Part shown: piece after piece, positions 5,875 through 25,800 of the stretch
How the letters are laid out: every line of letters starts with the position of its first letter
How positions within the stretch are numbered: the first letter of the stretch is position 1
NCBI RefSeq assembly: GCF_003696265.1
Contig: NZ_RFFH01000010.1
Location: 157,263-221,262 of the forward strand
Reading direction: 5' to 3'
From: Nocardia stercoris
GTDB lineage: Bacteria; Actinomycetota; Actinomycetes; Mycobacteriales; Mycobacteriaceae
DNA length: 64,000 nucleotides
The notes under the pieces: model-generated
The model's input: the letters and a program-made list of their open reading frames with translations, nothing else
The model's database searches: none
What the model was told of the DNA's origin: nothing
Translations under genes and position numbers: made by a program

Positions 5875-6099
5875 GTGAGCGTCAATCCATTCGATGATGA
5901 AGACGGCCGATTCTATGTTCTGATCAACGAGGAAGAGCAGTATTCCTTGTGGCCCGCATTCGCTGAGATCCCGAACGGATGGACGTCGATATTCGGTGAG
6001 GAGTCCCGGGCGGCCTGCATCGACTACATCACCGAGAACTGGACGGATATGCGTCCGAAGAGCCTGCGCGTGGCCATGGCCGAACGGGCCGGTGTGTAG
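5875..6099 (+). CDS. mbtH-like: MbtH-like NRPS accessory protein
   Basis: This 74-residue protein is of the family that binds NRPS adenylation domains and is often needed for their solubility and activity. The family signature is clear: N18-x-E-x-Q22-x-S-L-W-P27, then P33-N-G-W36, then WTDMRP at residues 56-61. The tryptophans at 26, 36 and 56 are the diagnostic ones. GTG 5875 is the start, supported by GGAG at 5864-5867 seven nt upstream. It is transcribed towards the tailoring operon and ends just before a shared hairpin. It is the only MbtH-like gene in the window and so the likely partner of the many A domains encoded to the right, although it is not in their operon. Confidence 0.95.
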
Positions 6100-6197: not shown

Positions 6198-7532
6198 TTA
6201 CGCTCGATAGTAGCTGTCGGCGACATCCAGCGCGTGATCCAGTGCGCCGAGCGCGAATTCGACTTCGTCGTCGGAGACGATCAGCGGTGGTGCCAGATGG
6301 ATCCGGTTGGCGACGATCATCGGCCAGACCCGGTGCTCGCGAAGCGACTGTGCCACAGCGGCCATCGCCTCGGTGCCGCCGCGGCCCGGGAGCAGCGGCG
6401 CCAACGGTTGCTTCGTGTCCCGGTCGGTGACCAGCTCGAGCGCCCAGAACAGCCCGGCGCCGCGCACGTCACCGATGGACGGATGCCGCTGCTGTAGGGC
6501 CCGCAGGCCCGGGGCGAGCGCGGTGGCGCCCAGTGTCCGGGCGCGGGTCAGCAGGTCGCCGGCGGCGATCTGGGCCACCGACGCGACACCCACCGCACAG
6601 GCCAGCGGATGGCCGGAATAGGTGGATCCGCCGGGAAACGGTGTGGCGGAGAAGGATTCGACGATGTGCTCGGCGACGATCACCCCACCGAGCGGCACGT
6701 AGCCGGACGTGACGCCCTTGGCGAAGGTGACCAGATCCGGCCGGACGTTCCAGCGCTGGTAGGCGAACCACTCGCCGACCCGGCCGAACCCCGACATGAC
6801 CTCGTCGCAGATCAGGACGATGCCGTGCCGGTCGCACAGCCGCCGCACCCCGGCCAGATAACCGTCCGGCGGCACCAGGATCCCGTTGGTGCCGACGACC
6901 GACTCCAGGATCACCGCCGCGACGGTATGCGGCCCTTCGAATTCGATGGTCCGCTCCAAGTGGCGCAGTGCGCGCTCGCACTCGGTGGCATCGTCGGTGG
7001 CGTCGAAATCCGAACGGTAGGTATACGGACCGGAGAAATGGACGACGCCCGGAACCCCGGGCTCGTTCGGCCACCGGCGCGGGTCGCCGGAGATGGAGAT
7101 CGCCGCGGCGGTCGCGCCGTGATAGGAGCGGTAGTGCGCGAGGATCTTCGCGCGGCCGGTGTGCCCGCGCGCCATCCGCACCGCGTGCTCGACGGCTTCG
7201 GTGCCGCCGTTGGTGAACAGGACCCGGCCGGCTCCGGTTCCCGAGATGTCCAGCAGTGCCGCCGCGAGTTCGTCGCGCACCTCGTTGAAGAACGTGGGCG
7301 CCACCACGCAGAGCCGGTCGGCCTGGGTGTGGACGGCATCGATCAGGGCCGGATGCCGGTGCCCGAGATTGAGATACACCAGCTGGGAGGCGAGGTCGAG
7401 GTAGCGGGTGCCCCCGGCGTCGGAGAACCAGCAGCCCGCGCCGTCGGTGATCTCGAGCCGGGCGCCGCCGTCCTGCGCCCCCCACGGCTGGAAGACGTGG
7501 CGATCGGCTCGGTAGGTGTCGATCATCGTCAT
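6198..7532 (-). CDS. Class III (omega) aminotransferase, PLP-dependent
   Basis: This 444-aa enzyme would move an amino group between an amine or omega-amino acid and a keto acid or aldehyde, using pyridoxal phosphate in the cytosol. Visible marks are FTNGGTEAVEHAVRMAR (phosphate-binding region), YRSYHGAT, ICDEVMSGFGRVGEW with the PLP-pyridine Asp, and TFAKGVTSGYVPLGG with the Schiff-base Lys272. Overall it recalls taurine:pyruvate and beta-alanine:pyruvate aminotransferases, though family alone does not fix the substrate. I set the start at ATG 7532, 4 bp after the regulator gene's stop; the frame stays open upstream, but that stretch is out-of-frame sequence of the regulator. With the acylating aldehyde dehydrogenase of the same operon it could make an omega-amino acid from an acyl-CoA via its semialdehyde. 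Confidence 0.88.
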   Translation of the reverse strand: MTMIDTYRADRHVFQPWGAQDGGARLEITDGAGCWFSDAGGTRYLDLASQLVYLNLGHRHPALIDAVHTQADRLCVVAPTFFNEVRDELAAALLDISGTGAGRVLFTNGGTEAVEHAVRMARGHTGRAKILAHYRSYHGATAAAISISGDPRRWPNEPGVPGVVHFSGPYTYRSDFDATDDATECERALRHLERTIEFEGPHTVAAVILESVVGTNGILVPPDGYLAGVRRLCDRHGIVLICDEVMSGFGRVGEWFAYQRWNVRPDLVTFAKGVTSGYVPLGGVIVAEHIVESFSATPFPGGSTYSGHPLACAVGVASVAQIAAGDLLTRARTLGATALAPGLRALQQRHPSIGDVRGAGLFWALELVTDRDTKQPLAPLLPGRGGTEAMAAVAQSLREHRVWPMIVANRIHLAPPLIVSDDEVEFALGALDHALDVADSYYRA

Positions 7533-7536
7533 CGGA

Positions 7537-8559
7537 TCACCGCTCGGCCGGGGTGGAGACCAGGGCCAGCAGGGGGTCGGCGCGGTGGTCCGGGCCGCCG
7601 GTCGGCGGGACGCCGTCCAGTGTGTCGGCGAAGGCGTTCCATTCGGTGGCGAATGTCCGAGCCAATTCGGCGACGGCCCCGATCCACTGCCCCGGAACCG
7701 AATTCTGGTGGGTATGCCATTCGCCGACCACATTGCCGTTGTGTAGCCAGCGGATGAGTTGGCGTCCGGATTCCGAGGATCGCACCGAAGGATCGTTGAT
7801 GAGTTTACGAAGTAATTCCGCACTGTTCTTGCGGTTTTCGACGAACGTATACCCGGAGGATTTTCCCGGTTCGAGCGCGGGATTTCCGGGAGCGCGGTCG
7901 CCCTCGCCGCGCTCCATTCTGCGGCGGATTTCCTGAACTGTCGAATGGGATATTCCCACTTCACGGGCGATACTGCGCGCGGAGGCGGTCGGAGTTCGGG
8001 CGAGGAGCTCGACGACCCGCTCGCGCGCGGCCATGCCGTCGACCGGCCGGAGCCGGCCGTCGCGGCCCAGGCGTTTGGTCGATTGTCCAATTTGCCCGGC
8101 CGCCTGCCGGAGCTTCCCGACGGTGCCCGGGGCGAGGCCGACCACCCCCGCGATGACCCGGTTCGACCACTCCGGCTGCGTCCTGACCAGGCGAATCGCC
8201 GCCGCGGTGCGATCGCTGCGGCTCAACGGAAGTCCGTGCGAGGAGTTGAGATAGACCGCGAGCAGGAAGCATTCCTCCTCGGATCCGGTAAACAACCGGG
8301 CCTCGATCGAGGTATCGCCGCGGAGTACCGCGGCCCGAATTCTGTGCACACCGTCGATAACTCGCATCGTGCTCGAGTGGACCACGATGGGTGGCAACTC
8401 CACGTCGAGCTCGGCCAGATGGCGGACGTGCGGCTGGGACACTCCACCGAGACGGACGTAGTCAACGGAATCTATCTCCGAGATCGAAAGTCGGACCGAG
8501 GGTAGTGAATCGATCGATCCTGGTGCGTATACCGACACATCATTGCCCGCATGGGGCAC
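7537..8559 (-). CDS. strR-like: StrR/NovG/Bbr-like ParB-fold pathway-specific transcriptional regulator
   Basis: This is a probable DNA-binding activator of the cluster, about 340 aa. The N-terminal ParB/sulfiredoxin-like fold shows VIDGVHRIRAA (residues 68-77). It is followed by HGLPLSRSDR (108-117), characteristic of the StrR, NovG and Bbr regulators of streptomycin, novobiocin and glycopeptide clusters. A helix-turn-helix lies at about 130-151 (WSNRVIAGVVGLAPGTVGKL) and a second candidate near 185-205 (SIAREVGISHSTVQEIRRRM). The start is uncertain: GTG 8559 gives a StrR-like length, and GTG 8538 is also possible. The gap of 259 bp (8560-8818) to the upstream gene holds no ORF I can support and may carry its own promoter. 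Leu249 is encoded by a rare TTA codon (7813-7815). A StrR-type operator lies at 13555-13585. Confidence 0.87.
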   Translation of the reverse strand: MPHAGNDVSVYAPGSIDSLPSVRLSISEIDSVDYVRLGGVSQPHVRHLAELDVELPPIVVHSSTMRVIDGVHRIRAAVLRGDTSIEARLFTGSEEECFLLAVYLNSSHGLPLSRSDRTAAAIRLVRTQPEWSNRVIAGVVGLAPGTVGKLRQAAGQIGQSTKRLGRDGRLRPVDGMAARERVVELLARTPTASARSIAREVGISHSTVQEIRRRMERGEGDRAPGNPALEPGKSSGYTFVENRKNSAELLRKLINDPSVRSSESGRQLIRWLHNGNVVGEWHTHQNSVPGQWIGAVAELARTFATEWNAFADTLDGVPPTGGPDHRADPLLALVSTPAER

Positions 8560-8818
8560 ACTGGTCAGTGTTTGTCCGTCGTGGTGCAAATGCCCTCCCT
8601 CAGCCGTCGGGCGGCAGCGCCCGACATTGCACTGGCTCTGCCGCCGACCGTAACGCAGACGTTGCACGCATTCAACTCGTTGCGGACGAATGGCCGCCGA
8701 CGCCGCAGTCGATTCACAGGAATGCGGCGAGCGCGGTCGGAACCCGCGCAATTCCATTTGGTCTGTTTTCGTTTCCGGTGGACCGGGGAGTGCGTTCCCG
8801 CCGGTGGTAACGCCGCCG

Positions 8819-10207
8819 TCAGGGAGCGGACAGCTGCTCGAAGCCCGCGACCGTGTCCAGATGCCGGCCGAAGATCGCCGCCTCGTCGGGTACCCGGGCC
8901 CCGATCGGGCGCGTGACCGTCGTGTAGTTGAGCAGATGCCGCCAGGTGACGTTCTCCGATAGGCTGCAGCCGCCCCAGGTCCCACTCGACAGTGTGGTCG
9001 TGAACGGCACTCCGCTGGTGAAACTTCCGGCGTTGGTCATGGTCGACTGGTTCACCACCACCCGCGCGGTGCGCGTCGCGTGCGCCAGCGTCGCGATCCG
9101 CTCGGCCGACGAACTGTAGATACCGCAACTGTGGCCGCCCCCGCAGCGGTCCAGGATGGTGTTCACCGCCGCCACCGCCGCGCCGAAGTCCCGGTACCCG
9201 CAGACCGTGACGACCGGTGCCAGCTTCTCCAGCAGGAGCGGGCTGTCGCCGGTGGGATCGTCACAGCCGGCGACGAGCAAGTGGGCCGCACCCGCGTCGA
9301 AACCGGCCGCGGCGGCGGTCCGGCGCGCGGTGAGACCCACAAGTGCCCGGTTGCGCGTGCTGCCGTCGGGCCACAGCACCCGCTCCAGGCGCGCGGATGC
9401 GGCCCGGTCGCACACGTGAGCGCCGTACCGGGACAGCTGCTCGAGGAAAGCCCCGCGCACCGACTCGTGTACCAGGACATTGCTTTCCGACGAGCAACTG
9501 GTGCCGTGATTGAAGGCGGCCCCGTCGGCGATGTGCCGGGCCGCGACCGCCGGATCGGCGGTCTCGTCGACGATCACGGTCGGATTGCCGACACCGGCGC
9601 CGATGGCCGGTGTGCCGCTGGTGTAGGCCCGCCGGACCGTCCCGGCGCCGCCGACGGCCACCACGAGATCGGCCGCGGTCATCAATCGGCGCGTTTCGTC
9701 CTTGCCTGAAATGCCGAGGTGTGCAACGAGATCGACCGGTGCCCCCTGGTCGGCCAGCACCTGCCGGACCAGGGCGACGGTCTGCTCCGACGCCTCCCGG
9801 GCGCGCGGATTGGAGGTGAAGATCACCGCGTTGCGGGTCTTGAGCACGGGCAGGATGTTGCAGACGATCGCCGAGGCCGGTGCCGTCGCGGGCCCGGCGA
9901 CGGCGACCACGCCGACCGGTTTGGCCAGCCGCGCCAGACCCAGCTCGTGGTTCTCCTCGACGACTCCGCCGGTGCGGTGCCCCCGCATGTCCATCAGGAT
10001 CCCGAGCACCCGTTGCCGGTACAGCCGGAACAGATCCTCGGTATTGCCGAAATGTGTTTCCAGATAACTGACTTCGGCGAGCCGGCGGGCGTTGTCCTCC
10101 CGGTAACAGTGCCAGCCGACGGCGGCGACGAGATCGTCGACCCGCTCCTGCGACCACCGTGCGTACTCACGTTGCGCCGCGCGGGCGCTGACGATCTCGT
10201 CCATCAT
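8819..10207 (-). CDS. Acylating aldehyde dehydrogenase (SauS/EutE/AdhE-N type)
   Basis: This 462-aa member of the CoA-acylating aldehyde dehydrogenase group would interconvert an acyl-CoA and an aldehyde with NAD(P)H. The nucleophile is Cys238 in FNHGTSCSSE, which lines up with the FDNGVICASE pocket of AdhE/EutE enzymes. VGGAGTVRRAYTSGTPAIG resembles their nucleotide-binding loop. Overall length and motif style resemble acylating sulfoacetaldehyde dehydrogenase (SauS). ATG 10207 is preferred since GAGGA lies 10 nt upstream. It sits 42 bp after the A-T didomain gene and shares its operon. Such enzymes are unusual in an NRPS cluster. Paired with the aminotransferase it could build beta-alanine from malonyl-CoA, or a related beta-amino acid. 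Taurine or sulfoacetaldehyde chemistry is the alternative. Confidence 0.82.
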   Translation of the reverse strand: MMDEIVSARAAQREYARWSQERVDDLVAAVGWHCYREDNARRLAEVSYLETHFGNTEDLFRLYRQRVLGILMDMRGHRTGGVVEENHELGLARLAKPVGVVAVAGPATAPASAIVCNILPVLKTRNAVIFTSNPRAREASEQTVALVRQVLADQGAPVDLVAHLGISGKDETRRLMTAADLVVAVGGAGTVRRAYTSGTPAIGAGVGNPTVIVDETADPAVAARHIADGAAFNHGTSCSSESNVLVHESVRGAFLEQLSRYGAHVCDRAASARLERVLWPDGSTRNRALVGLTARRTAAAAGFDAGAAHLLVAGCDDPTGDSPLLLEKLAPVVTVCGYRDFGAAVAAVNTILDRCGGGHSCGIYSSSAERIATLAHATRTARVVVNQSTMTNAGSFTSGVPFTTTLSSGTWGGCSLSENVTWRHLLNYTTVTRPIGARVPDEAAIFGRHLDTVAGFEQLSAP

Positions 10208-10249: not shown

Positions 10250-12073
10250 TCAGTGGGAGCCGGCTTCGGCGATGATCCGGTCGACGGTCGCGGCGAATTC
10301 CGCGACTGTCGGGTGCTCGAGCAGGTCCCGCACCGACACCGCGGCACCCAGCGAGCGCCCGATGCCCCGGACCACCCGGGCAGCCAGCAGTGAATGCCCG
10401 CCGAGCTCCACGAAATGCGCGGTGCGGGAGTTGATCCGGCGGTCGAAGACGTCCGACCACACCTGCGCCACCGCCAGCTCGGTCGCCGTGACGAAATCGT
10501 CCGCCGGCGCCGCGGCGGTGGTGGTGTCGCCGGCGGGGGACTCGCGCAGGCAGCTCTGCTGCAGCGCGGCCAGATCCGCCTTACCGTTCACGGTCAGGGG
10601 GATGGCGTCGACACAGACGAAGGTGCTCGGAATCATGAACTCCGGCAGGGTGTCCTCCATCGCGGCGCGCACCACCGCGACGAGATCGGCCGGCGCGCCC
10701 TCGTCGACCACCAGCGCCAGGCCCAGTGCCATGCCGACGGCCTCGGGGATGCCGAAGGCGATCGCCTGCCGCACGCCCGCGACCCCGACCGCCGCGGTCT
10801 CGACCGCCTTCAGTTCGACGCGCGAACCGCGGATCTTGATCTGATGGTCGGCGCGGCCGACGAACTCGATCGTGCGGTCGTCGTGCACCCGGACCACGTC
10901 GCCGGTCCGGTACATGCGCGCCCCGCTCGCGTGCGGGTCGGCCACGAAGCGGGCCGCGGTGGTCTCGGGCATGTTGCGATAGCCGCGCCCGACGCCGGGA
11001 CCGGCCAGGAACAGTTCCCCCTCCGCCCCGATCGGGACCGGCTTCAGCTCCGAATCGAGAACCAGCGCACGGTAATTGGTGATCGGACGGCCGATCGTGA
11101 GCGGGCTGTCGCCGGCCGCGCTGTCCGCCCAGGTTGCGCAGATGGTGACCTCGGTCGGCCCGTAGGCGTTGATCAGGCGCCGGTTCGAGGACCACAGCTC
11201 GGCCAGCGCGGGCGGGCAGGCCTCGCCGGCGACGACGACGGTCCGCGGTCCGGCGCCGGCCGCCACGATCGCGTCGTAGGCCGACAGCAGCGACGGGGTC
11301 GCCGTGATGGCGTCCAGCGCGGTGAAGACCTTCTCGCTGTGTTCGTCGAGCGGATCGTGCAGGACCACGGCGTGACCGCCCGCCAGCGGCAGCAGCGTCG
11401 ACCAGATCCACGCGTCGAACCCGGAGGGCGCGACGTTGCCGCAGGCGCTGCCGTCGGGCAGGTCCAGCCGCCGCAGCGCGTTCGCCAGGTTGGCGACGTT
11501 GCGGTAGGTGATCTGCACCCCCTTCGGGGTGCCGGTCGTACCGGAGGTGTAGATGGTGTACGCGGCCGAATCCGGCAGCGCCGCAGCGAAACTCACCGGA
11601 CCGTCGGAGTCGTCGTCGAGGCTGCGCGGGTCCAGGCGGGGGATCGCGCCGGACACCGGCAGCGTCCCCTCCGGCGCCACGATCACCGCGAGCGCGCTGT
11701 CGGCCGCGATCGCCGCCACCCGGTCGTCGGGGTGGCTCGGGTCCAGCGGGACGTACACCGCGCCCAGCCGCCACACCGCGAGCATGGTCGCCACGCTGAA
11801 CCGCGACCGCCCGAAGGTGACACCGACCGCCACCTCCGGGCCGGCCGCGTAGCCGCGCAACGCCGCCGCGATCCGGTTCGCGTGGCGGTCGAGTTCGGCG
11901 TAGCTGAAGTCCCCGTCCGGCGCCTGCACGGCCGGCGCGTCCGGCGAGTGCGCGGCGATCGCCGAAACCTGGTGCGCCAGATTGTATTCGGCGTCGAAGT
12001 CGGCGGTGTGGCCGGCGAGCACACTCAGCTGCTCGAACTCGAAATCGATGATGTCGGTCATGTTCGACGTCAT
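10250..12073 (-). CDS. Stand-alone NRPS adenylation-carrier (A-T) didomain, Phe-type pocket
   Basis: This 607-aa protein would activate one amino acid as its adenylate and load it on its own carrier domain. Core motifs include YTSGTTGTPKG (A3), a FDAWIWS A4 region, [12 protein letters not shown] (A5), YRTGDVV (A7) and NGKADL (A10, lacking the usual DRK). The carrier site [10 protein letters not shown] places phosphopantetheine on Ser561. Aligned with GrsA by eye, the ten pocket residues are D-A-W-T-V-A-A-I-C-K, one conservative change from the Phe signature DAWTIAAICK. ATG 12073 is supported by AAGGA 8 nt upstream. The P450 gene ends 41 bp before it. Pairing of a discrete A-T protein with a P450 is the known arrangement for beta-hydroxylation of carrier-bound amino acids (NovH/NovI, NikP1/NikQ). 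There is no C, E or TE domain. Confidence 0.92.
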   Translation of the reverse strand: MTSNMTDIIDFEFEQLSVLAGHTADFDAEYNLAHQVSAIAAHSPDAPAVQAPDGDFSYAELDRHANRIAAALRGYAAGPEVAVGVTFGRSRFSVATMLAVWRLGAVYVPLDPSHPDDRVAAIAADSALAVIVAPEGTLPVSGAIPRLDPRSLDDDSDGPVSFAAALPDSAAYTIYTSGTTGTPKGVQITYRNVANLANALRRLDLPDGSACGNVAPSGFDAWIWSTLLPLAGGHAVVLHDPLDEHSEKVFTALDAITATPSLLSAYDAIVAAGAGPRTVVVAGEACPPALAELWSSNRRLINAYGPTEVTICATWADSAAGDSPLTIGRPITNYRALVLDSELKPVPIGAEGELFLAGPGVGRGYRNMPETTAARFVADPHASGARMYRTGDVVRVHDDRTIEFVGRADHQIKIRGSRVELKAVETAAVGVAGVRQAIAFGIPEAVGMALGLALVVDEGAPADLVAVVRAAMEDTLPEFMIPSTFVCVDAIPLTVNGKADLAALQQSCLRESPAGDTTTAAAPADDFVTATELAVAQVWSDVFDRRINSRTAHFVELGGHSLLAARVVRGIGRSLGAAVSVRDLLEHPTVAEFAATVDRIIAEAGSH

Positions 12074-12114
12074 GGTGTCTGTCCTTCTGTCGGATCGATG
12101 CGGTCGCCGGGCGC

Positions 12115-13320
12115 TCAGCTCAGTGCGACCGGGAGGTAGTTCAGGCCCCACATGAAGTTCGAGTGCAACCGCTCGATCTCGCCCGCCAGCTCGGGCGTAC
12201 GGACCTTGTCGACCAGCGTCCGCAGCAGCACGGTGAGTTCGGTGCGGGCCAGCGGGGCGCCGATGCAGAAGTGCTCGCCGATACCGAAGACCAGGTGCCG
12301 GCCGATGGTGCGGCCGACGTCGAAGCGGTCGCCGTCGGGGAACACCGCGTCGTCGCGATTGGCGGAGGTGTTCCACACCACCACCGGCTCGCCGGCCCGG
12401 ACCTGCTGGGATCCGACCAGCACGTCCCGCTTGGCCATGCGCAGCGAGTGCAGGGCCGGGCTGGTGTAGCGCAGGATCTCCTCGACCGCGGTGGCGACCT
12501 CGGCGTCACCGGTCTTGAGCCGCTGCCACTGGTCCGGATTCTCGATCAAGGCCAGGAAGCCGTGCGAGGAGGCGTGGCGCGTGGTCTCGGTCGCGCCGGT
12601 GAGCAGGCCGTCGCAGTTGCGGATGATCTCCTCGTCGGTCAACTTGCGGCCGTCGATCTCGCCCTGCAACAGTGCGCTCACCACATCGTCACCGAGGTGC
12701 TTGCGGCGGTGGTGGATCAGATCGTCGTAGAACATGAAGATCTCCGACGAGGCCGCGGTCTTGTCGATCTCGTCCACCGGGCAGCCGGTGCTGCCGTCCA
12801 CCGAGGCGCCGAAGACCCGGCTGGTCAGGCCCACCAGCATGTGCCGCTCCGACTGGGGAAGGGCCATGATCTCGCAGATGATCGCGGCCGGCAGCTGGGC
12901 GGCGATCTCGCCGACGAAGTCGACGGTGCCCTTCTCCAGGGCCTCGTCGACCAGCGGCTCGATGATCTCGCGCATCGCCTCGGCCAGCGACGCGGTCGCG
13001 CGCGGGCCGAAGGCGGAGTTCATGACGCGGCGCAGCTGGGAATGGCGCGGCGGATCGGTGACGATCAGAATCTTTCCGGCGCAGGCCTCGACGGCCGCCG
13101 GGTCCGAGTCCAGGCGCATACCGTATTCGGAACTGAAATCCTCGTTGTTCCGGTAGACCGCCAGCGCGGGCGCGTAGGTCATAACCGACCAGAAGCCGCT
13201 ACCGTCGTGGCGTTCGTTCCAATAAACGGGGCTCTCCGCGCGGAGTCGCGCCCATTCCTGTACCGGGTTCCCGCTTCGATACAGTTCCGGGTCGGAAATG
13301 TCGATACGTGCTGTTTCCAT
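12115..13320 (-). CDS. Cytochrome P450, likely acting on a carrier-bound amino acid
   Basis: This 401-aa soluble bacterial P450 has an I-helix oxygen-binding motif LLTGATETTRH, an ExxR motif in EEILRYTSP, and a heme loop FGIGEHFCIGAPLAR with Cys352 as the thiolate ligand. Length and motif order are normal for a class I bacterial enzyme, which would need ferredoxin and reductase partners that are not encoded here. ATG 13320 gives the usual N-terminus; an in-frame ATG at 13344 is the alternative. It is the first gene of the minus-strand operon and is followed within 41 bp by the A-T didomain gene. By analogy with NovI-type enzymes the likely substrate is the aminoacyl group (Phe) on that carrier. 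Oxidation of the finished peptide cannot be excluded. Confidence 0.9.
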   Translation of the reverse strand: METARIDISDPELYRSGNPVQEWARLRAESPVYWNERHDGSGFWSVMTYAPALAVYRNNEDFSSEYGMRLDSDPAAVEACAGKILIVTDPPRHSQLRRVMNSAFGPRATASLAEAMREIIEPLVDEALEKGTVDFVGEIAAQLPAAIICEIMALPQSERHMLVGLTSRVFGASVDGSTGCPVDEIDKTAASSEIFMFYDDLIHHRRKHLGDDVVSALLQGEIDGRKLTDEEIIRNCDGLLTGATETTRHASSHGFLALIENPDQWQRLKTGDAEVATAVEEILRYTSPALHSLRMAKRDVLVGSQQVRAGEPVVVWNTSANRDDAVFPDGDRFDVGRTIGRHLVFGIGEHFCIGAPLARTELTVLLRTLVDKVRTPELAGEIERLHSNFMWGLNYLPVALS

Positions 13321-13476
13321 CCGCTGCAACCTGCTCTCGCGCATTCGGGGACATCTCGCCGGCTCCGTCGGGTCACCGAATTGCCCGAGGAAATACCGAA
13401 ACGCGCGGTCGACGTAACGGCTGTCGCCGCGGATTCGGTCCCTACTTTCGTCGAGGATGCCGGTAGTGCGGAAGTG

Positions 13477-13506
13477 AGGATATCGGCACATTTCGGATGC
13501 GGTCAA
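13477..13506 (-). promoter_or_regulatory. Candidate sigma70-like promoter for the P450 operon
   Basis: Read on the minus strand, TTGACC (13506-13501) and TATCCT (13482-13477) are separated by 18 nt. Transcription would start near 13470, about 150 nt before the P450 ATG. The StrR-type operator lies some 50 bp upstream of the -35 element, a plausible activator position. This is consensus matching only. Confidence 0.4.
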
Positions 13507-13554
13507 CGAACAGCGGGGGCCGCGGTCGGCGCACCCGCCATCCGCGAGATCGCC

Positions 13555-13585
13555 TGGCCGACTGTGCATTTTGAGCAGTCGGCCA
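13555..13585. promoter_or_regulatory. StrR-type operator: perfect 10-bp inverted repeat with 11-nt spacer
   Basis: The arms TGGCCGACTG (13555-13564) and CAGTCGGCCA (13576-13585) are exact reverse complements separated by 11 nt. The known StrR-family consensus is GTTCGACTG, 11 nt, CAGTCGAAC. The inner CGACTG...CAGTCG core and the spacer length match exactly, and only the outer bases differ. It lies almost midway between the divergent P450 (start 13320) and NRPS (start 13817) genes, in a cluster that encodes a StrR-like regulator. It probably serves as the activation site for both. Confidence 0.8.
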
Positions 13586-13816
13586 CCGGCGCCGCAGCTC
13601 TCTCGGGTCTGCTCCCGGGCGCCGACCAGGGGATCTCCGGCCGCCCGGGCGAGTTGCATCATCATATCCCAGCGGCATGATTCCCGGATTTACCGGCGTA
13701 TTCATGTGGAGTTTGCGTCCGGTGTTCGGAACCGGGCGGAACCATTCGGCTACCGTCCGGGATCGCGATCGTTGTACTTTGTGGTTTGCGAAAAACCGGT
13801 CGTGACGTGGAAAGTG

Positions 13817-16800
13817 ATGACAGACGTGATCGACAATTACGAGTCCAATGCACTTCTGCTGCCCGTCACGAGCGCGCAACGTGAGATCTGGATGGCGTGT
13901 CGATTCGCTCCGGAGATTCCCACCTATCGTCTCGGTGAATATTGGGAGATTCGCGGGGACGTCGACGTCGACGCGATGCGTGCGGCGGTACGCCGGGTCG
14001 TCGCGGAATCGGATGCGCTGCGGGTGCGTTTCACCGAAGTCGACGGGGAGGTTTTCCAGTCCGTTCTCCCGATGTCCGACTGGGAGTTGCCGTTCCACGA
14101 TCTGAGCGACCGTCGCGACGCCTTCGCGGCGGCGCTCGCCTGGATGCGCGACGAACTGCGGGATCCGATGGACCCGGGCGCCGGCCCGCTGTTCCGGTAC
14201 GCGCTGTTCAAGATCTCGCGGTCGCGGTACGTCTGGTTCGGTGCCTGGCACCACATCGTGGTCGACGGGGCCGCCGTCGCGTTGCTCAAACAGCGTGTGG
14301 CGGAGCTCTATACGAGCTACGCGGCAGGAGCGGAGGCCGGCGCGTCCGCGGCACCGGCGCTGAGTGAGCTCGTCGCCGCCGACCGGGCCTACGCGGCCTC
14401 GGATCAGTACCGGGCCGACCACGACTTCTGGGCGGCGGCCCTCGCCGACCCGCCGGGTGTGTTGTCGTTCGGCGACAAGGCCGCCGGGGGGATCGCCGAG
14501 TTGGTCGGCCGGACCGACGAACTCGACCCGGCGACCGACGCCAGCCTGCGCGAACTCGCCGAGCGATGCGGCGTCCGAATGTCGACCCTGTTCATCTGCG
14601 TCAGTGGCCTGTACGCGTCGATGGTCACCGGTGAGCGTGACCTGTTGATCGGCATCCCCGTCTCCGCTCGCACCGAGCCTGCCGTGCGGACCGCCGTCGG
14701 CTCGGTGGCCAACGTGCTTCCGGTGCGGCTGCGCCTCGACCCCGCCCGCCCCTTCGCGACACTGTTGACCGAGGTGGCCGCGCAGGTCCGGGACGCGTTG
14801 CGGCATCAGCGTTTCCGCGGCGAGGACATCATCCGGACGGTGGCCCCGCACACCGCCGCCGGCGAGTCGCCGTTCGGCTTCCACGCCAACTACATGGGAT
14901 TCGACTACGACTTCCGGTTCGGGGAGTTCGAAGCCGACCGATGCGTACTGACCGCCGGAATCCCGGAAGTCTGCTCACTGAACTACTACGACGTGCGCGG
15001 CCGCTTCCCGACCCGGGTCGACTTCTCGGCCAACGGCCGGTACTTCGACACCGACAGCGTCGCCACCCACCTGCGGCGTTACGTCGAACTCCTCCGCACG
15101 ATCGCCCGGCGCGCCGCGGACCCGCGGTTCCCGATCGGCCGGCTGGAACTCCTGGACGACGGTGAGCGGCACCGGATCCTGCGCGACTGGAGTGGTTCGG
15201 ATGTCGCTCGCGCGGCGGCCGAACCGGTCGCGACGTCGTTCGCCGCGCGCGTCACGGCCGATCCCGAGGCCGTCGCCGTGGTGACCGCGACGCGGACGCT
15301 GACCTACCGCGAACTCGACGAGCGGTCGGGACGACTGGCCCGGCTGCTGGCCGCGCGGGGCGCGGCCGCGGAACAGGTTGTGGCGCTGGCACTGCCGCGC
15401 ACCGCCGACCTGGTGGTCGCGCTGCTGGCGGTCGCGAAGTCCGGTGCGGCGTATGTGCCGTTGGACCCCGCCTATCCGCGGGACCGGTTGCGGTTCATCC
15501 AGTCCGACGCGCACCCGGTACTGGTGTTGACCACCGGTGCGGTCGCCGACCGCGTCCCCGAGACGGGTGTGCCGCGCCTGCTGCTCGACGACCCTGCCCT
15601 GTCCGCCGAGCTCGACGCCCTGGAACCCCTGGCGCCGGTGGATGTTCCGGACACGACTGTGGCGTATCTGATCTACACCTCCGGCACCACGGGTGTGCCC
15701 AAGGGGGTCGCGGTCGCACGCGCGAACCTGGCCGCGCTGGTGCGGGCGACGGCGTCCCTGCACGGCGCCGCGGATCCGGTACGGGTGCTGGCGTCGACGT
15801 CGGTGGCCTTCGACGTGTCGGTGTTCGAACTGTTCACCACGCTGTGTGCGGGTGGTTCGGTCGAGCTCGTCGACGACGCGCTGGCTGTGGCGCAGCGGGA
15901 TTCGTGGTCCGGTGCGGTGATGAGCATGGTGCCGTCGGCTTTCGACGCGGTGGCCGCGCACACCGAGACCGAACTCGCGGCGGACACGATCGTATTCGCC
16001 GGTGAGGCCTTGACCTGGGCGACGATCGAGCGGGCGCGCGACCGGATCCCGGGCGTGCGAGTGATCAACGCCTACGGCCCGACCGAGTCGACGGTGTACG
16101 CGACGACGGCGGTGCTGGAGGCCGGTGCGACCGGTCCGGTGCCGATCGGTGTACCGCTGCCGGGTGTCCACGCCCGCGTCCTCGACGGCTGGCTGCGGCC
16201 GGTTCCGGCGGGCGTGGCGGGCGAACTGTACCTGGGTGGCGCCCAGGTGGCCCGCGGCTACCTCGGCCGTCCCGACCTGACCGGTGCGCGATTCGTCGCC
16301 GACCCGTTCGACGTGAGCGGTGCGGGCGCGCGCCTGTATCGCACCGGTGACGTGGTGCGCTGGAACGCTTCCGGGACGCTCGAGTACCTCGGCCGGGCCG
16401 ACGACCAGGTCAAGGTGCGCGGCTTCCGGATCGAACTCGGTGAGATCGAAGCGGCCCTCACCGCGCACCCGGAGGTAGCCCAGGCCGCCGCGATCGCCTA
16501 CGACACGGGCTCGGGCAGCCAACTGGTCGGCTATGTGGTCGCGGCCCGCCGCGACGCCGCCGACCCGAGCCGGAAGGTCCGCGTCGGCGTGCTCGCCGGT
16601 GGCACCGGCGCGGCCGGGGAGTTCGCGACACCCGCACCGGCGGACCGGCGCGACGGTGCCGTGCCGCTGGATTCGGCTGCCGTGCGGGCGTTTCTGCGGG
16701 ACCGCCTGCCGGACTACATGGTCCCGGCGGTGGTCATGGTGCTGGACGCGCTGCCGCTGTCGGCCAACGGCAAACTCGACCGAAAGGCGTTGCCGCAGCC

Positions 16801-19800
16801 CGTCTTCGCCGCCGCCACTGCCTATCGTGCGCCCGCCACCCCGGCCGAGGCGGCGCTGGCGGACGTGTTCGCCGAGATCCTCGGCCGCGACCGGGTCGGT
16901 GTCGACGACGACTTCTTCGAACTCGGCGGTGACTCGATCCGCTCGATCCAGGTGGTCTCCCGGGCGCGCGCTGCCGGGATCGTGATCAGTCCGCAGGACG
17001 TGTTCGGGCACCGCACCGTCGCCGAACTCGCGCGGGTCGCCGACGCCACGCGGGACCGGCGACAGCTGGCGGAACTGCCGGGCGGCGGGATCGGCTGGAT
17101 GCCACTGCTGCCCGTGGCCCACTTCGTGCGCGAACTCGGCGCCGGCCTCGACGAGTTCCACCAGTCGATGCTGCTCGACCTGCCGGTCGGCATCGACGCG
17201 ACGAGTCTGGCGGCGACCTGGCACGCGGTGCTCGACCGGCATCCGGTCCTGACCGCCCGGCTCGTCGATGTCGCGGGCGGCCCGGGCGAACCGGGGCCGG
17301 GGCTGGTGACGAGCCCGGCGGACGGCGTCGACGTCGCCGCGTTGATCCGCCGTATCCCGGTGCCGCACAGCGGTATCGCGGGCACCGACCCGGACTTCGC
17401 CGCACTGGTCGACACCGAGCTGGCCGCGGCGGCCGGGCGGCTGGATCCGTGGCGCGGCGTGCTGCTGGCGCTGGTGTGGTTCGATCTCGGCGCGGACGTA
17501 CCGGGCGTGCTGGGCGTGGTCGCCCACCACCTGGCCGTCGACGGCGTGTCGTGGCGAATTCTGTTGCCGGACCTGGCAACCGCCTGGTCGCAGCTGGACG
17601 CGGGAGAGCGGCCGGTGCTGCCGGCGACGGGCACCTCGCTGCGCCGCTGGGCGCACGCGCTGGCCGAGGAGGCCACGACCGGCCGGCGGACGGCCGAACT
17701 GGCCTGGTGGACCGGCATGCTGGCCGGACCGGACCCGGTGCTCGGCGCGCGGGAACTGAATCCGGCGCTCGACACCCACGCGACGCTCGAGCAGGTTCGG
17801 CTGCGGCTGCCGGCCGACCTGACCGAGACGGTGCTGACCGAGCTGCCGGCCGCCGTGCACGGACGGGCCGACGACGGCCTGCTGGCAGCGCTGCTGGTCG
17901 CGGTGACCGTATGGCGGCACCGTCGCGGCGGGGACGCCGATTCCGGTGTGGTGGTCCGGCTGGAGGGCCACGGCCGCGAAGAGGCCGCGGTGCCCGGTGC
18001 GGATCTGTCGGCGACGGCCGGGTGGTTCACGACCATGTACCCGGTGCGGCTGACCCTGCCCGCCGACCTGGACCCCGAGGATGTGCTCGCCGGCGGGCCC
18101 GCCGCGGGTCGGGTGCTGAAATGGGTCAAGGAACTGCTGCGGGCGGTCCCCGATCGCGGGATCGGCTACGGTCTGTTGCGGTACCTGAACCCCGAGACCG
18201 GACCGGTGCTGGCCGGATTGCCTTCGGGCCGAATCGGTTTCAACTACCTGGGCCGATTCACCGGCGGTGACCCGATACCGGCTCGGGGCTGGACCGTCAC
18301 CCGGCACCGCCTCACCGAATTCGAGCTGGCGGCCGGGGCCGGTGCCGCGATGCCGGCCTGGTCGGCGCTGGAGATCAACGCCCTCGTCACCGAGGACGCC
18401 ACCGGACCGGTGCTGGGCGCGACCTTCGACTACCCGGCCGGCGTGCTCGACCGGGCGGTGGTCGAGGAACTGTCCGCGCTGTGGCGTGCCGCCCTGACCG
18501 GTCTCGCGCGGTACACCCGCGCCGGCGCCGGTGGCCGCACCCCGTCGGACGTGCCGATGACCGGGCTCGATCAAACCGCCATCGAGGTCCTGGAAGCGAG
18601 ATACCCACAGCTGCAGGACATCTGGCCGGTGACCGACATGCAGGCGGGACTGCTGTTCCACGCCCGGCTGGCCGGGACCGGATTCGACGCCTACCACATG
18701 CAGGTCATGTTCGACCTGTCCGGACCGGTGGACCCGAGCCGGCTGCGCAGCGCAGGTCAGGTCCTGCTGGACCGGCACCCCAGCCTGCGCACGGCCTACC
18801 CGATCACCGACGACGGCACCACCGTCGCGGTGGTGTGCGACCAGGTCACCCTGCCCTGGCACGAACTCGACCTGCGCACCCAGCCCGCGCACCGGCAGGC
18901 GGAATTGGTCGCCGAATTCCTCGACACCGACCGGGCGACGCATTTCGACCCCGTCGCCGCACCCATGCTGCGGCTGGCCCTGATCCGGTTCGGCGCCGAC
19001 CGGTCGCGGCTGGTGCTGACCGCGCACCATGTGCTGCTCGACGGCTGGTCGCTGCCCCTGCTGCTGGCCGAACTGCTGGTGCTGCACGCCACAGCGGGTG
19101 ACCCGGCGCCGCTGCCCGCCGCCGCGAACTACCGGGACTTCCTGCGCTGGCGGCACACTCAGGATCCGGAGCGCGCCGCGCGGGCCTGGCAGCGATACCT
19201 GGGCGGAGTCGCCGAACCGACCCTGCTGGCCACCGCCGACCGGCCGGACGGCGACGACCCGGCCATCGCGTCGGATGTGCTGGAGACAGTGGACATTCCG
19301 CTGCCGGCGCCGGTGTCGCGGGCGCTGTCGGCGCGCGCGATCGAATGCGGTGTCACGCTCAACACCGTCGTGCAGGTGGGCTGGGGCATGCTGCTCGCGA
19401 CCGTGACCGGTCGCGACGATGTGTTGTTCGGCGCCACCGTATCCGGACGCCCGGCCGACCTGCCGGGCGCGGACACCATGCTGGGCCTGCTGATCAACAC
19501 CGTGCCGGTGCGGGTCCGGATCGACGCCGCCGACACGCTGGCGACCCACTTGCGCCGGCATCAGGCCGAACAGCTCGGCCTGCTGGAACACCACCAGCAC
19601 CCGCTGACCGAGATGCACCGGATCACCGGCGTCCCGGCCCTGTTCGACACCCTGCTGGCCTTCGAGTCCTATCCGATCGACGAGAAGTCCCTCACCGGAT
19701 CCATCACCATCACCGGCGTCGAACACCGCAGCGGCACCAACTATCCGGTGACCGTCACCGCGACCGTGTCCGACACCCTCGCGCTCACACTGCAATTCGA

Positions 19801-22800
19801 CACCGGATTGTTCACGCGCGGCGAGATCGACCGGCTCACCACCGGTTTCGTCACCCTGCTGTCGGCCTTCGCCGCCGACCCCGACACACCGGTCGCCCGA
19901 CTCGGACTGCTGGACGCGGCCGACCGCGACCGGCTCGCGCGGTGGAACGACACCACCGCGACTCCGTCGGTGCAGACCGTCGCGCAGCTCGCGGCCGCAC
20001 GCGCCGCGGCGGATCCGGACGCGGTGGCCGTGGTCGCCGGAACCGAGTCGCTCAGCTACCGGCAACTCGACGAGCGGGCCAACCGGCTGGCCCACTGGCT
20101 GCTCGACCGGCAGGTCGGCGTCGACGACGTCGTGGCGCTCGCGATGCGCCGGTCTGCCGATCTGGTAGTCGCGATGCTGGCCGTCGGCAAGGCCGGCGCG
20201 GCCTGGCTGCCGATCGACCCCGACTATCCGGCGGACCGGATCGCCTACATGCTCGACGATGCCCGCCCCCGGCTGACCCTGGACGCCGTGCCGGATCTGG
20301 ACCCGTATCCGCCCACCGCGCCGGAGCTCACCGTCGCCCCCACCGGCGCCGCCTACGTGATCTACACCTCCGGCTCGACCGGCCGCCCCAAGGGAACCGT
20401 GGTCACCCATGCCGGCGTGGCGGCGCTCGCCGGCGCGATGACCCGGCGGTTCGGGCTCACGCCCGCGAGCCGAGTGCTCGCCCTGGCGTCGCCGAGCTTC
20501 GACGCCTCGGTCATGGAACTGCTCATGGCACTGGGATCCGGTGCCGCACTGATGATCGCGCCGCCCGGTGTCTGGAGCGGCACCGAACTGGCGGACCTGC
20601 TGATCGCCGGTGCGGTCACCCACGCGTTGATCCCGCCCGCGCTACTGGCCACCGTGCCCGAGCTGCCCGACGGTATCCTCGCCGTACCGGTCGTCGGCGC
20701 GGACACCTGTCCGCCCGAACTGGTGGACCGCTGGGCCGGTGGGCGCCGGATGATCAACGCCTACGGTCCCACCGAAGCCACCATCGCCGTAACCCTCAGT
20801 GACGCACTGGCTCCCGGCGACGGGGTGCCGCCGATCGGGCGGCCGGTCACCGGCACCCGGCTGTACGTATTGGACCGATGGCTGCGCCCGGTGCCGGTCG
20901 GCGTCGTCGGCGAACTGTATGTCGCCGGGCCGGGTGTCGCCCGCGGCTACCTGGGCCGGCCCGCGCTGACCGCCGAACGGTTCGTCGCCGATCCGTTCGG
21001 CGGCACCGCCCGGTTGTATCGCACCGGGGACCTGGTGCGCTGGAACGCCGACGGCCAGCTTGCCTTCGCCGGACGCGCCGACGACCAGGTCAAGATTCGC
21101 GGTTTCCGCGTCGAGACCGCGGAGATCGAGGCCGCGCTGATCACCGACCCGGCCGTGGACCGCGCCGTGGTGGTCGTCGTCGACGGTCCCGCCGGAAAAC
21201 GCTTGGCCGCCTACGTGACCGTCGCCGCCGGCGCGGCCTTCGACCCGGCCGCGCTGCGCGACCACGTCGCCGCCCGGCTGCCGCACTACATGATGCCCGC
21301 CGCGTTCACCGAGATCGCCGCGATCCCGCTCACCCCGAACGGCAAGATCGATCGAAAGGCGTTGCCGGAACCGGTATTCGCCGCGACCACCGAGTACCGT
21401 GCGCCGGCCAACCCGGTCGAGCGGACGCTCGCCGCCCTGTTCGCCGAAGTGCTCGGTGCCGAGCGGGTCGGCGCGGACGACAGCTTCTTCGATCTCGGCG
21501 GCCACTCGCTGCTGGCGACCCGGCTGCTCGGGCGGATCCGGGCCGAACTGGGGGTGGAGGTACCGATCCGGGCGGTCTTCGATCTGCCGACCGTCGCGGG
21601 CCTGGCCACCCGGATCGGCGCCGCCGACGCCACCGGACCCGAACTGGTGCGGCGGCCCCGACCCGAGGTCGTGCCGCTGTCGGCGGGACAACGCCGGCTG
21701 TGGGTACTGCACGAGCTCGACGGTCCCGCACCGACCTACAACATGCCGGTCGTGATCCGCTGGGCGGGCGCGGTGGACGTCGGTGCGCTGCGGGCCGCGC
21801 TGGCCGATGTGGTCACGCGGCACGACACGCTGCGGACCGTCGTCACCCGGGTCGGCGACCTCCCCGCGCAGCACATCGTGGCGGACGCGCGCCCGGAGCT
21901 GATCACCGGTGCGGTGACCGGCGGCGAGCTGCCGGCCGCGTTGGCCGCGAGCGCCGCACACGGCTTCGATCTCGCCACCGAGATCCCGATCCGGGCCTGG
22001 CTGTGGACCGTCGGCGCCACCGACCACGTGCTGGCCCTGGTGATCCACCACATCGCCGCCGACGGCTGGTCGATGGCGCCGCTGCTGCGTGACTTCGGCT
22101 CGGCCTACCGGGCCCGGATCGCCGGGCACGCACCGGAGTTCGCCCCGCTGCCGGTCGACTACATCGATTACACGCTGTGGCAGCGCGAACTGCTGGAGTC
22201 GGGGCCGCGGGCCGAGGGCGTGGTCGCCGGTCAACTGGCCTTCTGGCGAGAAACCTTGCGGGACATGCCGACCGACCTGATGCTGCCCACCGACCGCCCG
22301 CGTCCCGCGATGCCGACCGGTCGTGGTGCGGTGGTGCCGGTAGCGCTGGACGCCGTGACCCACGCCCGGCTGACGCAGCTGGCCCGCGACCACCGGGCCT
22401 CGGTGTTCATGGTGTTGAACGCGGTGCTGGCGACCGTGCTGTCCCGGCTCGGCGCGGGCGCGGACGTCCCGGTCGGGGCCGCGGTCGCCGGCCGCGGCGC
22501 CGCGGCCCTCGACGCGGTCGTCGGCTTCTTCGTCAACACGCTCGTGTTGCGCGGCGACCTGTCCGGGGACCCGGAATTCGGCGAACTGCTGGACCGGATG
22601 CGGCGCACCCACCTCGACGCGCACGCGAACTCCGACGTGCCGTTCGAACGCGTCGTGGACGCGCTGGCGGCGGACCGCTCCGCGGCCCGCGACAGCCTGT
22701 TCCAGGTGATGCTGGTCCTGCAGAACAACGAGAACGCCACGGTCGCCGAACTCGGCCTGCCGGACGCCCGGGTGTCCCACGAGGCCGTACACACCGCCAC

Positions 22801-25800
22801 CGCCAAGTTCGATCTGACCTTCTCCTTCGCCGAGACCTACGCCACCGACGGCACCCCGTCCGGAATCGGCGGCTGGATCGAATACGCCACCGACCTTTTC
22901 GACGCCACGACCGCCGCGGCGCTCGCGGCCCGCTTCACGCTGGTAGCCGAAGCCGTGACCGCGGACCCGCGGCTACGGGTATCCCAGGTCCCGATCCTGC
23001 TGCCGGCCGAACAGCGAATGGTGTTGGAGTGGAACGACACTGGCACCGACGCGGCGGTGGTGTCGCTGCCGGCGATGTTCGCCGCGCGGGTCGCGCAGAC
23101 CCCGGACGCGGTCGCGGTTGTGGCGGCGGCTTGGGCGCGAGAAAGTCACGCGGACAGCGTGTTTGCCGGTGCGGTGTCGGTGACGTATGCCGAGTTGGAT
23201 GCGCGGGCGAATGCTGTGGCGTGGTGGCTGCTCGAGCGCGGAGTAGCGGCGGAGGAGCCGGTGGCGGTTGTGTTGCCGCGGTCGGTGGATCTGGTGGTGG
23301 CGTTGTTGGGTGTGGCGAAGGCGGGTGCGGTGTTCGTGCCGTTGTTGCCGGAGTGGCCGCAGTCGCGTCGTGATCAGGTGGTCGCCCAGGCCGGTATCCG
23401 GCTGAGTCTAACCGCCGTGGAAGTTACTGCGGCCGTGGCGGATGCGGCCTCGACGGCGGCGGGATTCGCCGGTCCGGGCGTGGACGTGGACCCCGATCAG
23501 CTGGTGTACGTGATGTACACCTCCGGGTCTACCGGTGAGCCCAAGGGTGTCGCGGTGCGGCATCGGGATGTGACTGCGCTGGTGCAGGACCGGTGTTTCG
23601 CTGGTGGTGCGCACGAGCGAGTACTCGTGCATTCGCCGCATTCGTTCGACGCGTCGACCTACGAGCTGTGGGTGCCGCTGCTCAATGGCGGTCGAGTGGT
23701 TCTCGCCGAACCCGATTCTGGCCCGGTGGAATTGGCGTCGTTGATCAGCGACTCCGGTGTGACCGGATTGTGGTTGACCGCTGGTTTGTTCGCGGTGATG
23801 GCGCAGGAGCATGCGCAGTGTTTCTCGGGTGTGCGGCAGGTGTGGACCGGTGGTGACGTGGTCTCGCCTGATGCGGTGCGCCGAGTCCAGCAGGCATGCC
23901 CGGAAACGGTGGTGGTGAACGGGTATGGCCCCACGGAGACAACGACTTTCGCGACGTACTATCCCATCCCGACGGCTCACCCCGCGAACAGCTCGGACAG
24001 CGCCCACGACGGTAGCGCCGACGTCGGGGAGGACGATCGAGCGTCCACCGCCGCGGGGCCCCAGGACGACCTCAGCGCCGCGGTTCCGATCGGCCGGCCG
24101 CTGGACAACATGCGAATGCTGGTCCTGGACAGCGGATTCCGGCCGGTACCGCCGGGTGTGATCGGCGAGCTGTATGTCGCCGGTGCGGGCGTCGCCCGAG
24201 GGTACGCCGGTCGCGCGGACCTGACCGCGGCGCGGTTCGTCGCGGATCCGGCGGGATCGGGGGAGCGGGTCTACCGGACCGGTGACCTGGTGCGCTGGAA
24301 CGGTTCCGGTGCGCTCGAGTACGTCGGCCGGGCCGACGACCAGGTGAAGATCCGGGGTTTCCGGATCGAGCCCGGTGAAGTCGAGGCGGCGCTCGCGGCC
24401 GACCCCGCGGTGGGTCGCGCCGTCGTGATCGTCGTGCCCGGGCCGGGCGGAAAACGACTGGCCGCCTACATCACCGCGGCCGTGGACGGCGAGCAGGGCA
24501 CCGCGACCGCGGCGTCGATCGACACCGCCGCCGTGCGGGAACGGGTCGCGGCGCGCCTGCCCGAATACCTGGTGCCGGCGGCGATCGTCGCGCTCGACCG
24601 CATCCCGCTGACCACCAACGGCAAGGTCGACCGGAAAGCCCTGCCGGCACCGGAATTCCGCACCGGCGGCGGCTACCGGGCGCCCGCCGGCGACACCCAA
24701 CGGCTGCTCGCGGACCTGTTCGCGGAGGTCCTGGGCGCGGAACGAGTCGGCATCGACGACGACTTCTTCGACCTCGGCGGCGATTCGATCGTCGCCATCC
24801 GGTTGGTGTCGCGGGCGCGGGCCCACGGTCTGGTGCTCAGCCCCCGGGATGTGTTCCGGCACCGCACCGTCGAGGTGCTCGCGGAGGCGGCCCGTCCGCT
24901 CGGCGCGGACCGTCCGGCCGAGGAGGCCGGCGCCGGAATCGGCGAGCTGCCCGCGACTCCGGTGATGCGGTACTTCGCCGAGCTTCCCGGCGCGCTGTCG
25001 ACGTTCCATCAGCGCATGGGGCTGCCGCTGCCGCCCGGAGTCCGGGCCGACCAGCTGGCCGACGCGCTGCAAGCGGTTCTCGATCATCACGACGCGCTGC
25101 GGATGCGGGTCGATTTCCGCACGCCCGGCGTGGTCGAGATCGCGGCCGCGGGCACGGTCGCGGCGACCGAGGTGCTACGGCACGTCGCGGTGGCCGACCA
25201 CGGCACCGAGCCGATCGCCGAGCTGGTCGAGTCCGAAACTGCCCGCGCCCGAACGGAATTGGACCCGGCGACGGGCCGGTTGGTGCGGGCGATCCGGTTC
25301 GACGCCGGACCGGACGAGCCCGGCATGCTGTTGCTACTGGTGCATCACTGGGCGGTCGACGGTGTTTCCTGGCGCATCCTGCTCGACGACCTGCGGGCCG
25401 CGCTGGAGGCGGTCCGCGCCGGCGAATCCGTTGCGCTGCAGCCGGTTCCGACCTCCTTCCGGCGGTGGGCGCACCGGCTGGTGGCGCGCGCGCCGGCCCG
25501 GCGAGCGGAACTGCCGCTGTGGCGCGAGGTGCACGCCGGGCCGCGGCCGCCCCGGATCGGCAGCCGCGCACTGGATCCCCGCCGCGACACCGTCGCCACC
25601 CTGGGGCAGCTGGAGCTGCGGCTGTCGGGCGAGGTGAGCGAAGCGCTGCTGACCACGGTCCCGGCGGCGATCCACGGTGAGATCGACGACGTCCTGCTCA
25701 CCGCGCTGGCCCGGGCCGTGCGCCGCTGGCTCGGATCCACCGGGCCGGTCCTGGTGGACCTGGAAGGCCACGGCCGCGAAGAGTTCGCCGCCGACCTGGA

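Follow-up and report, generated by a model that had tools for sequence, protein, structure and literature searches.

Gene organisation of the locus

The window (the whole stretch of Nocardia stercoris DNA that was analysed, 64,000 nucleotides) contains two rows of genes that diverge from a 496-bp region (Table 1). The leftward row encodes a cytochrome P450, an adenylation-carrier (A-T) protein, an acylating aldehyde dehydrogenase-like protein, a StrR-like regulator and a class III aminotransferase, and the rightward row consists of two overlapping giant NRPS genes that together span at least 75 kb. The P450 start codon (residue 116 of a longer ORF) was picked since profile similarity starts there, the fullest NCBIfam matches of the long ORF beginning at residues 125-139, and the true start of the A-T ORF probably lies downstream of 12376. 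The P450 beside a free-standing A-T didomain (10250-13320) is reminiscent of pairs such as NovH/NovI, which hydroxylate amino acids bound to a carrier.

Pfam Condensation, AMP-binding and PP-binding domains were found in the first 4,999 aa of NRPS 1, the part searched. Simple motif patterns indicated 10 A and 10 T motifs in NRPS 1, and 5 A and 8 T motifs in NRPS 2, giving at least 15 adenylation motifs combined; the contig stops within NRPS 2. These patterns undercount, as the first 3,341 aa of NRPS 2 (the scope of the Pfam search of this gene) contain three AMP-binding domains by Pfam versus two by patterns. No thioesterase motif was seen in either gene up to the contig end. A DrrA-like ABC transporter ATPase gene (4101-5039) near the MbtH-like gene is a candidate product exporter. 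At 304-363, within a P-type ATPase ORF (11-3694), there is a near-identical pair of GAGCGGCCGCGCATCGGACG... copies, 24 nt apart.

Promoter-like and terminator-like sites in the divergent region, and in the 229-bp gap (8590-8818) upstream of the likely TTG start of the regulator gene, were judged by consensus scans. A promoter-like sequence faces the P450 gene; no consensus counterpart for the NRPS side was found in the divergent region (13321-13816), and no terminator-like site in 13300-13850. The gap contained no sigma-70-like promoter and no terminator-like site on the regulator strand. A terminator-like hairpin with a weak T run is located within it at 8731-8749 on the + strand, opposite to the regulator.

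Table 1 Predicted genes and sites of the locus, with positions in the window
Feature	Position	Strand	Evidence and remarks
MbtH-like gene (NRPS partner), separate rightward unit	5875..6099	+	Pfam MbtH 1.9e-27
Class III aminotransferase	6198..7532	-	Pfam Aminotran_3 1.5e-91; likely ATG 4 nt after regulator stop
StrR-like regulator, 350 aa	7537..8589	-	Likely TTG start 8589; ParB/Srx-like N-domain, two HTH segments, helical C-terminus
Acylating aldehyde dehydrogenase-like	8819..10207	-	NCBIfam acylating sulfoacetaldehyde dehydrogenase, 405 bits, below the cut-off of 600
A-T (adenylation + carrier) ORF	10250..12376	-	Pfam AMP-binding 1.1e-64, PP-binding 1.4e-11
Cytochrome P450, 401 aa, leads leftward row	12115..13320	-	Pfam PF00067 4.1e-27
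Promoter-like TTGACC-18-TATCCT toward P450	13477..13506	-	9/12 matches; 1 found vs 0.2 expected; about 50 bp beyond the predicted operator
StrR-family-type operator (predicted)	13555..13585	.	Register GGCCGACTG-N11-CAGTCGGCC at 13556-13584
Giant NRPS gene 1, 13,387 aa, leads rightward row	13817..53980	+	Open frame; ATG 13817 or in-frame GTG 13814/13802
Giant NRPS gene 2, at least 11,865 aa	53977..64000, open to contig end	+	4-nt overlap with gene 1

A perfect inverted repeat between the two gene rows

The first-pass annotation had described a perfect 10-bp inverted repeat with an 11-nt spacer between the divergent genes, and this description is exact: the arms TGGCCGACTG (13555-13564) and CAGTCGGCCA (13576-13585) flank the 11-nt spacer TGCATTTTGAG and are complementary at 10 of 10 positions. 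The centre of the palindrome (13570) is 250 bp from the ATG of the P450 gene (13320, - strand) and 247 bp from the ATG of NRPS 1 (13817, + strand). When the 496-bp region 13321-13816 was subjected to 5,000 dinucleotide shuffles, perfect 10-bp arms were obtained at spacer 11 in two shuffles and at any spacer of 3-20 in 99, and the sequence CGACTG-N11-CAGTCG in none.

This core occurs in exact form once in the 7,545,798-base genome, as does a reversed control pattern, and the only copy is the one in the cluster, in line with the earlier expectation that a genome search would return few sites, mostly in this cluster. With up to one mismatch the core is found at 41 places genome-wide versus 34 for the control, and with up to two mismatches at 14 places within the window versus a shuffle mean of 8.3 (equalled in 5 of 100 shuffles); since these counts are near control and shuffle levels, degenerate core matches are approximately background. 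The full arms GGCCGACTG-N11-CAGTCGGCC have the window copy as their sole instance in the genome at 0-1 mismatch, and at up to three mismatches are found at 23 places versus 38 for the control. At least one exact core is present in 78 of 148 genomes of the same genus, and the core alone is therefore expected about once per genome. The significance of the repeat lies in its location and in the extension of its arms to 10 perfect pairs, the core by itself being insufficient.

A scan of 109.6 kb of the contig with the family grammar described below, GGC arms and five further arm types returned no credible second site and no StrR-type site upstream of the MbtH-like gene; the window palindrome is the sole family-form N11 site in these 109.6 kb. 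A match with two mismatches elsewhere in the genome (C23:614865) was discarded as a second site as it overlaps predicted ORFs, and another near match (C1:700099) appears from its letters to resemble part of a tRNA.

The regulator is StrR-like by sequence and predicted fold

A genome-wide search (E<=0.001) found one StrR-like gene, the regulator at 7537-8589, and its start is 5 kb from the palindrome on the P450 strand, where the first-pass annotation had placed a StrR-like regulator. Across 150 genomes of the genus, the relative with the highest score is 47% identical over approximately 300 residues (partial matches of approximately 150 residues reach 51%), so no orthologous cluster was available for footprinting. 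Identity to 57 StrR-like members, a comparison that covers relatives of StrR rather than StrR itself, is 39-46%; these include the protein of an S. bluensis locus (L099) whose cluster has a StrS-family aminotransferase gene. On this kinship the regulator is classed as StrR-like.

An HTH_AsnC-type match covers residues 190-225, and AsnC-type and other HTH profiles together cover 188-229; Pfam ParB_N did not match the regulator sequence at E<=1, and phmmer against the PDB gave no relative at E<=1. An AlphaFold2 model built from 58 sequences (pLDDT 79.4, pTM 0.54) has an alpha/beta N-domain, three-helix segments at 123-162 and 184-226 (the latter with helices 184-197, 203-210 and 214-226), a beta-hairpin between them (strands 171-173 and 179-181) and a helical C-terminal part. 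A fold search with this model returned 22 PDB matches at E<=0.001, all ParB, Noc, KorB or pNOB8-like ParB chains, with low TM-scores to the query (0.18-0.31) and alignment limited to the N-terminal half. In StrR, residues 197-230 form an AsnC-like tri-helical HTH with two short beta-strands ahead (PMC10886168), and the available section 2.1 of that source describes the beta-hairpin as a feature of StrR-like proteins. The model agrees with this published architecture, the regulator being predicted by fold to have a ParB-like N-terminal domain and, from the same model, an AsnC-like tri-helical HTH preceded by two short beta-strands.

Comparison with known StrR-family sites

The StrR box of streptomycin clusters is GTTCGActG(N)11CagTcGAAc (available portion of PMC8306873). 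The window palindrome shares with it the 9-bp arms, the 11-nt spacer, the CGACTG core and the first G, and lies likewise in a cluster with a StrR-like regulator, confirming the StrR register and core on which the assignment to the StrR family had been based. It differs at positions 2-3, which are TT in the StrR box and GC in the window, so that GGC stands in place of the outer GTT of each canonical half-site, and a single site is seen in the window cluster. The outer bases had been said to differ from StrR, which is correct, and to be TGGC for GTT, which is not, as in register (GGC-CGACTG against GTT-CGACTG) only positions 2-3 differ. Judged by its letters, the palindrome is predicted to be bound and to work like a StrR box, and is not filed as a canonical one.

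The sites of the glycopeptide regulators Bbr, Dbv4 and AoStrR1 are given as GTCCAR(N)17TTGGAC in the available portions of PMC6022936 and PMC7852140. They have a register equal to that of the window (6 outer bases and 17 between, equivalent to 9-11-9) and are read by the same protein family, but in these portions they have GTCCA rather than GGCCG, no CGACTG core and several sites per cluster. The earlier attribution of a CGACTG core to Bbr sites is incorrect by the letters given there, the register alone being common: the corresponding window sequence is GGCCGA(N)17TCGGCC. Compared with GTCCAACTG-N11 the window palindrome has mismatches at 4 of 18 positions, and no other place in the 109.6 kb has four or fewer. 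The published StrR and glycopeptide consensuses are two members of the grammar set described below, in one register.

CmlR, a relative of StrR, binds a divergent promoter site in the Streptomyces venezuelae chloramphenicol cluster, deletion of cmlR abolishes expression of that cluster, and CmlR counters Lsr2 silencing (available portion of PMC8406272). The window cluster resembles this system in layout, with a StrR-type site between two divergent operons and the regulator in the same cluster.

Operator grammar across StrR-like loci

Sites were collected from 80 named StrR-like loci with flanks of up to 10 kb (1.586 Mb), a non-random sample comprising the best 80 of at least 554 relatives. In this sample the pattern GNNCRNSYG-N11-CRSNYGNNC, with a minimum of 8 pairs out of 9, was enriched at spacer 11 only, with 37 sites, 14 of them perfect. 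Each of 18 alternative spacers in the range 5-23 gave 2-9 sites, of which 0-3 were perfect; judging from these counts, a number of the 37 sites, which are G+C-rich, may be chance matches. The 6-bp core was found at eight sites in the same best 80 loci, versus 0-2 for each of seven control patterns. The grammar itself was formulated once other loci had been inspected; the comparison of spacers above is the test of its spacer specificity. An arm-blind count of palindromes (9-bp arms, spacers 4-25) was rejected as a measure, with 104 perfect palindromes at spacer 11 versus 55-105 and no clear peak, and spacer 11 is therefore special solely in combination with the arm grammar. The window palindrome has 9 of 9 pairs at spacer 11 under this broad grammar, for which the threshold was 8 of 9.

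Arm types across the loci include GTTCGACTG, GTTCAACTG, GTCCAACTG, GTGCAACTG, GTGCATCTG and GGTCGACTG. As arm positions 2-3 and 5 vary among loci, GC at positions 2-3 of the window marks a variant of the family operator and not a canonical StrR box. The positive control, S. bluensis, has a perfect GTTCGAGTG palindrome at 5713, before a DegT/StrS-family aminotransferase gene that adjoins an inositol monophosphatase gene, and a second box, GTTCGACTG, at 15938; NCBIfam gave no match for six frames of this locus and L038. A perfect StrR consensus was present at one site in one genome among 394 of the class, too rare for use. The only other GGC-armed site was at L062 (8 of 9 pairs, within an ORF), which may be a chance occurrence; apart, possibly, from this one, the window arm variant is seen nowhere else in these data.

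In the sample, residue x of T(A/V)xDVR in the second HTH tracks the operator arm, a pattern confounded by relatedness. Where x is H, position 5 is G in 9 of 10 arms and positions 2-3 are TT in 10 of 10; where x is R, position 5 is A in 17 of 20; K is split 2 and 2; and the window regulator has Q with its GGCCG arm. Arms of unlike combinations were entered once in these counts, and the helix match is missing for L069, L074 and L131 despite their sites. The recognition-helix residue is a possible lead to a specificity code.

Predicted control of the cluster

We consider it likely, at a probability of roughly three in four, that the StrR-like regulator of this cluster uses the 31-base repeat as its operator and activates transcription in both directions from it, probably including that of its own gene. 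A regulator dimer would read both GGCCGACTG half-sites (9 bp each, with roughly two helical turns from centre to centre), and from the middle of the approximately 500-bp divergent region would recruit or stabilise RNA polymerase at both promoters. Its leftward output would be the P450, A-T and aldehyde dehydrogenase genes, and its rightward output the two NRPS genes. Because the regulator, together with the aminotransferase, ends the leftward gene row, transcription there would also raise the regulator, a positive feedback suggested by this gene arrangement, with co-transcription of the regulator presumed, and by activating relatives. Activation of both sides is the most likely arrangement by comparison with CmlR.

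The operator reading is favoured by an exact core that occurs once in 7.55 Mb, in the cluster that holds the one detected StrR-like gene, and also by the family grammar at spacer 11, the S. bluensis positive control, the layout shared with the CmlR system and the regulator model. Points against it are a half-site with 2 of its 9 positions unlike the StrR consensus, with GC at positions 2-3 lacking support from a second site or an ortholog, a core at genus background, the failure to find an NRPS promoter by consensus, the 229-bp gap, and an MbtH-like gene without a site. In a rival arrangement the repeat is still the regulator's operator, but the regulator bound there activates one promoter alone or represses the leftward genes, and is itself expressed from a promoter in the 229-bp gap, without feedback. 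We regard this as unlikely. The gap itself would accommodate such an arrangement, as would a consensus-like promoter on the leftward side only and the precedent of the glycopeptide clusters, among which Bbr is autoregulated and Dbv4 is not (available portion of PMC6022936), but consensus scans of the gap gave no promoter-like site and no same-strand terminator, and the palindrome is nearly equidistant from the two starts.

Palindromes within StrR-like regulator genes

In relatives from the genus, exact cores are located inside the StrR-like gene itself in 7 of 29 non-window regulator loci (1.5-kb flanks), each in the linker past the first HTH segment. In-gene palindromes of other StrR-like genes have the arm grammar and spacer of the window site but sit in the regulator coding sequence, where the window regulator gene lacks one: its in-gene register (left AGGCGGCCG, right CAATCGACC) has 4 of 9 pairs.

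Genes were anchored by protein motif only, and pairs were scored in the predicted register versus 24 slid registers. In the discovery set 107 of 110 regulators were anchored and 82 kept after removal of near-copies (81 without the window), with a mean of 4.89 of 9 pairs versus 1.94-3.34 in slid registers, at least 7 pairs in 26 genes versus 0-2, and at least 8 pairs in 15 versus 0-1. A smaller anchoring (103 of 110, 79 kept) gave a mean of 4.92 versus 1.90-3.37 and at least 8 pairs in 15 genes versus 0-1. The Streptomyces replication (30 genes, 28 anchored, 26 kept) gave 4.12 versus 1.92-3.42, with at least 7 pairs in 7 genes versus 0-1. As unnamed and named genomes can be of the same species, near-copies of discovery genes were then removed (29 anchored, 27 kept, 25 remaining; L137, L138, L140 and L143 dropped), and the mean was 3.80 versus 2.12-3.48, with at least 7 pairs in 5 genes versus 0-1 and at least 8 in 4 versus 0. 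The effect thus recurs, more weakly, in 25 further Streptomyces genes. In 2,000 re-pairings of arms, the overall paired fraction was equalled in none for the discovery set and in three for the replication set. Relatedness inflates the in-gene counts, and slid registers are the better control than re-pairing.

The palindromes could instead be a by-product of the conserved peptide RSTxExPQSN, which would make them uninformative on operators and weaken the family comparison. Many members conserve this peptide in their linker and close relatives have it in common, and the diversity of pair types is not above that of re-paired arms (22 versus a mean of 19.6 and a maximum of 25). A by-product is nevertheless very improbable, as arms change on both sides while pairing is kept with different amino acids (GTTCGTCTG/CAGACGAAC in L003 and GGTCGGCTG/CAGCCGACC in L024 with 9/9 pairs, GTGCAACCG/CAGTTGCAC in L054 with 8/9); at least 7 of 9 pairs occur in 26 of 81 discovery genes versus a re-paired mean of 8.0 and maximum of 16, and in 5 of 25 replication genes versus a mean of 0.9 and maximum of 4; and other registers reach only 0-2 and 0-1, respectively. 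Palindromes with 9 of 9 pairs are present in L010, L018, L021, L087, L100, L105, L115, L120-L125, L131-L134, L148 and L166; their place is the inter-HTH linker, and their arms differ among genes and co-vary. The 20 genus stretches L115-L134 were chosen (L131-L134 for their in-gene core match), so the 13 of 15 in-gene sites among them is not a frequency.

On a regulator tree of 97 rows the in-gene sites are scattered, with 15 changes, four of them forced by well supported branches; with many unresolved forks, the tree is compatible with both an ancestral state and repeated gain. The tree neighbour of the window regulator, without firm support, is L003, which has an in-gene site. The gene at L003 (L115:9330-10376), the best-scoring relative (47% identity), lies in a phosphonate-type cluster, where it is followed by PEP mutase, PhyH-type dioxygenase and enolase-like genes. 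At L105 the in-gene palindrome has MMPL transporter, luciferase-like oxygenase and PKS genes downstream. In-gene sites may serve autoregulation or, as could be the case at L105, may switch on the genes that follow in the same orientation. A strict exclusivity of in-gene and external sites, observed among the first 100 loci once low-A/T palindromes were filtered, was broken by L163 of the replication set.

No statement of an in-gene StrR operator was found in the literature searched, a set that lies outside the primary StrR and NovG papers. One StrR site may have been reported within strR. If absent from the primary StrR papers, in-gene operators would be more surprising than the window site.

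Tentatively, and at somewhat less than even odds, we propose that StrR-family regulators commonly carry their own operator within the coding sequence, in the inter-HTH linker and under selection at the DNA level, such that the target could be read from the gene itself. In the window cluster the in-gene copy would then have decayed, with the right arm CAATCGACC left, a derived condition in which the single copy at the divergent promoter is the working one. Given the ParB/KorB-like fold, the regulator may be a protein that slides or clamps on DNA and loads at the operator, which would account for operators located hundreds of bases from promoters.

Discussion

That the repeat serves a different regulator as operator, is a transcribed hairpin or arose by chance, its likeness to the StrR box being accidental, is highly improbable: perfect 10-bp arms at any spacer of 3-20 do arise in 99 of 5,000 shuffles and the 6-bp core about once per genome in the genus, but the spacer-11 form arises in two shuffles and the core in none, no terminator-like site was found in 13300-13850, and the palindrome, which obeys a grammar drawn from other loci, separates the two main rows of genes in the one StrR-like cluster that was found.

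As the predicted operator of the cluster's own regulator, the repeat provides, with one site and one regulator, a handle on a giant NRPS cluster, at least 75 kb long. A grammar with variable positions 2-3 and 5 would make the operators of other StrR-like clusters easier to predict. If in-gene operators hold, the target of many uncharacterised regulators could be read from a copy within their own genes, and the placement of a binding site there, in mid-gene, would call for a reason.
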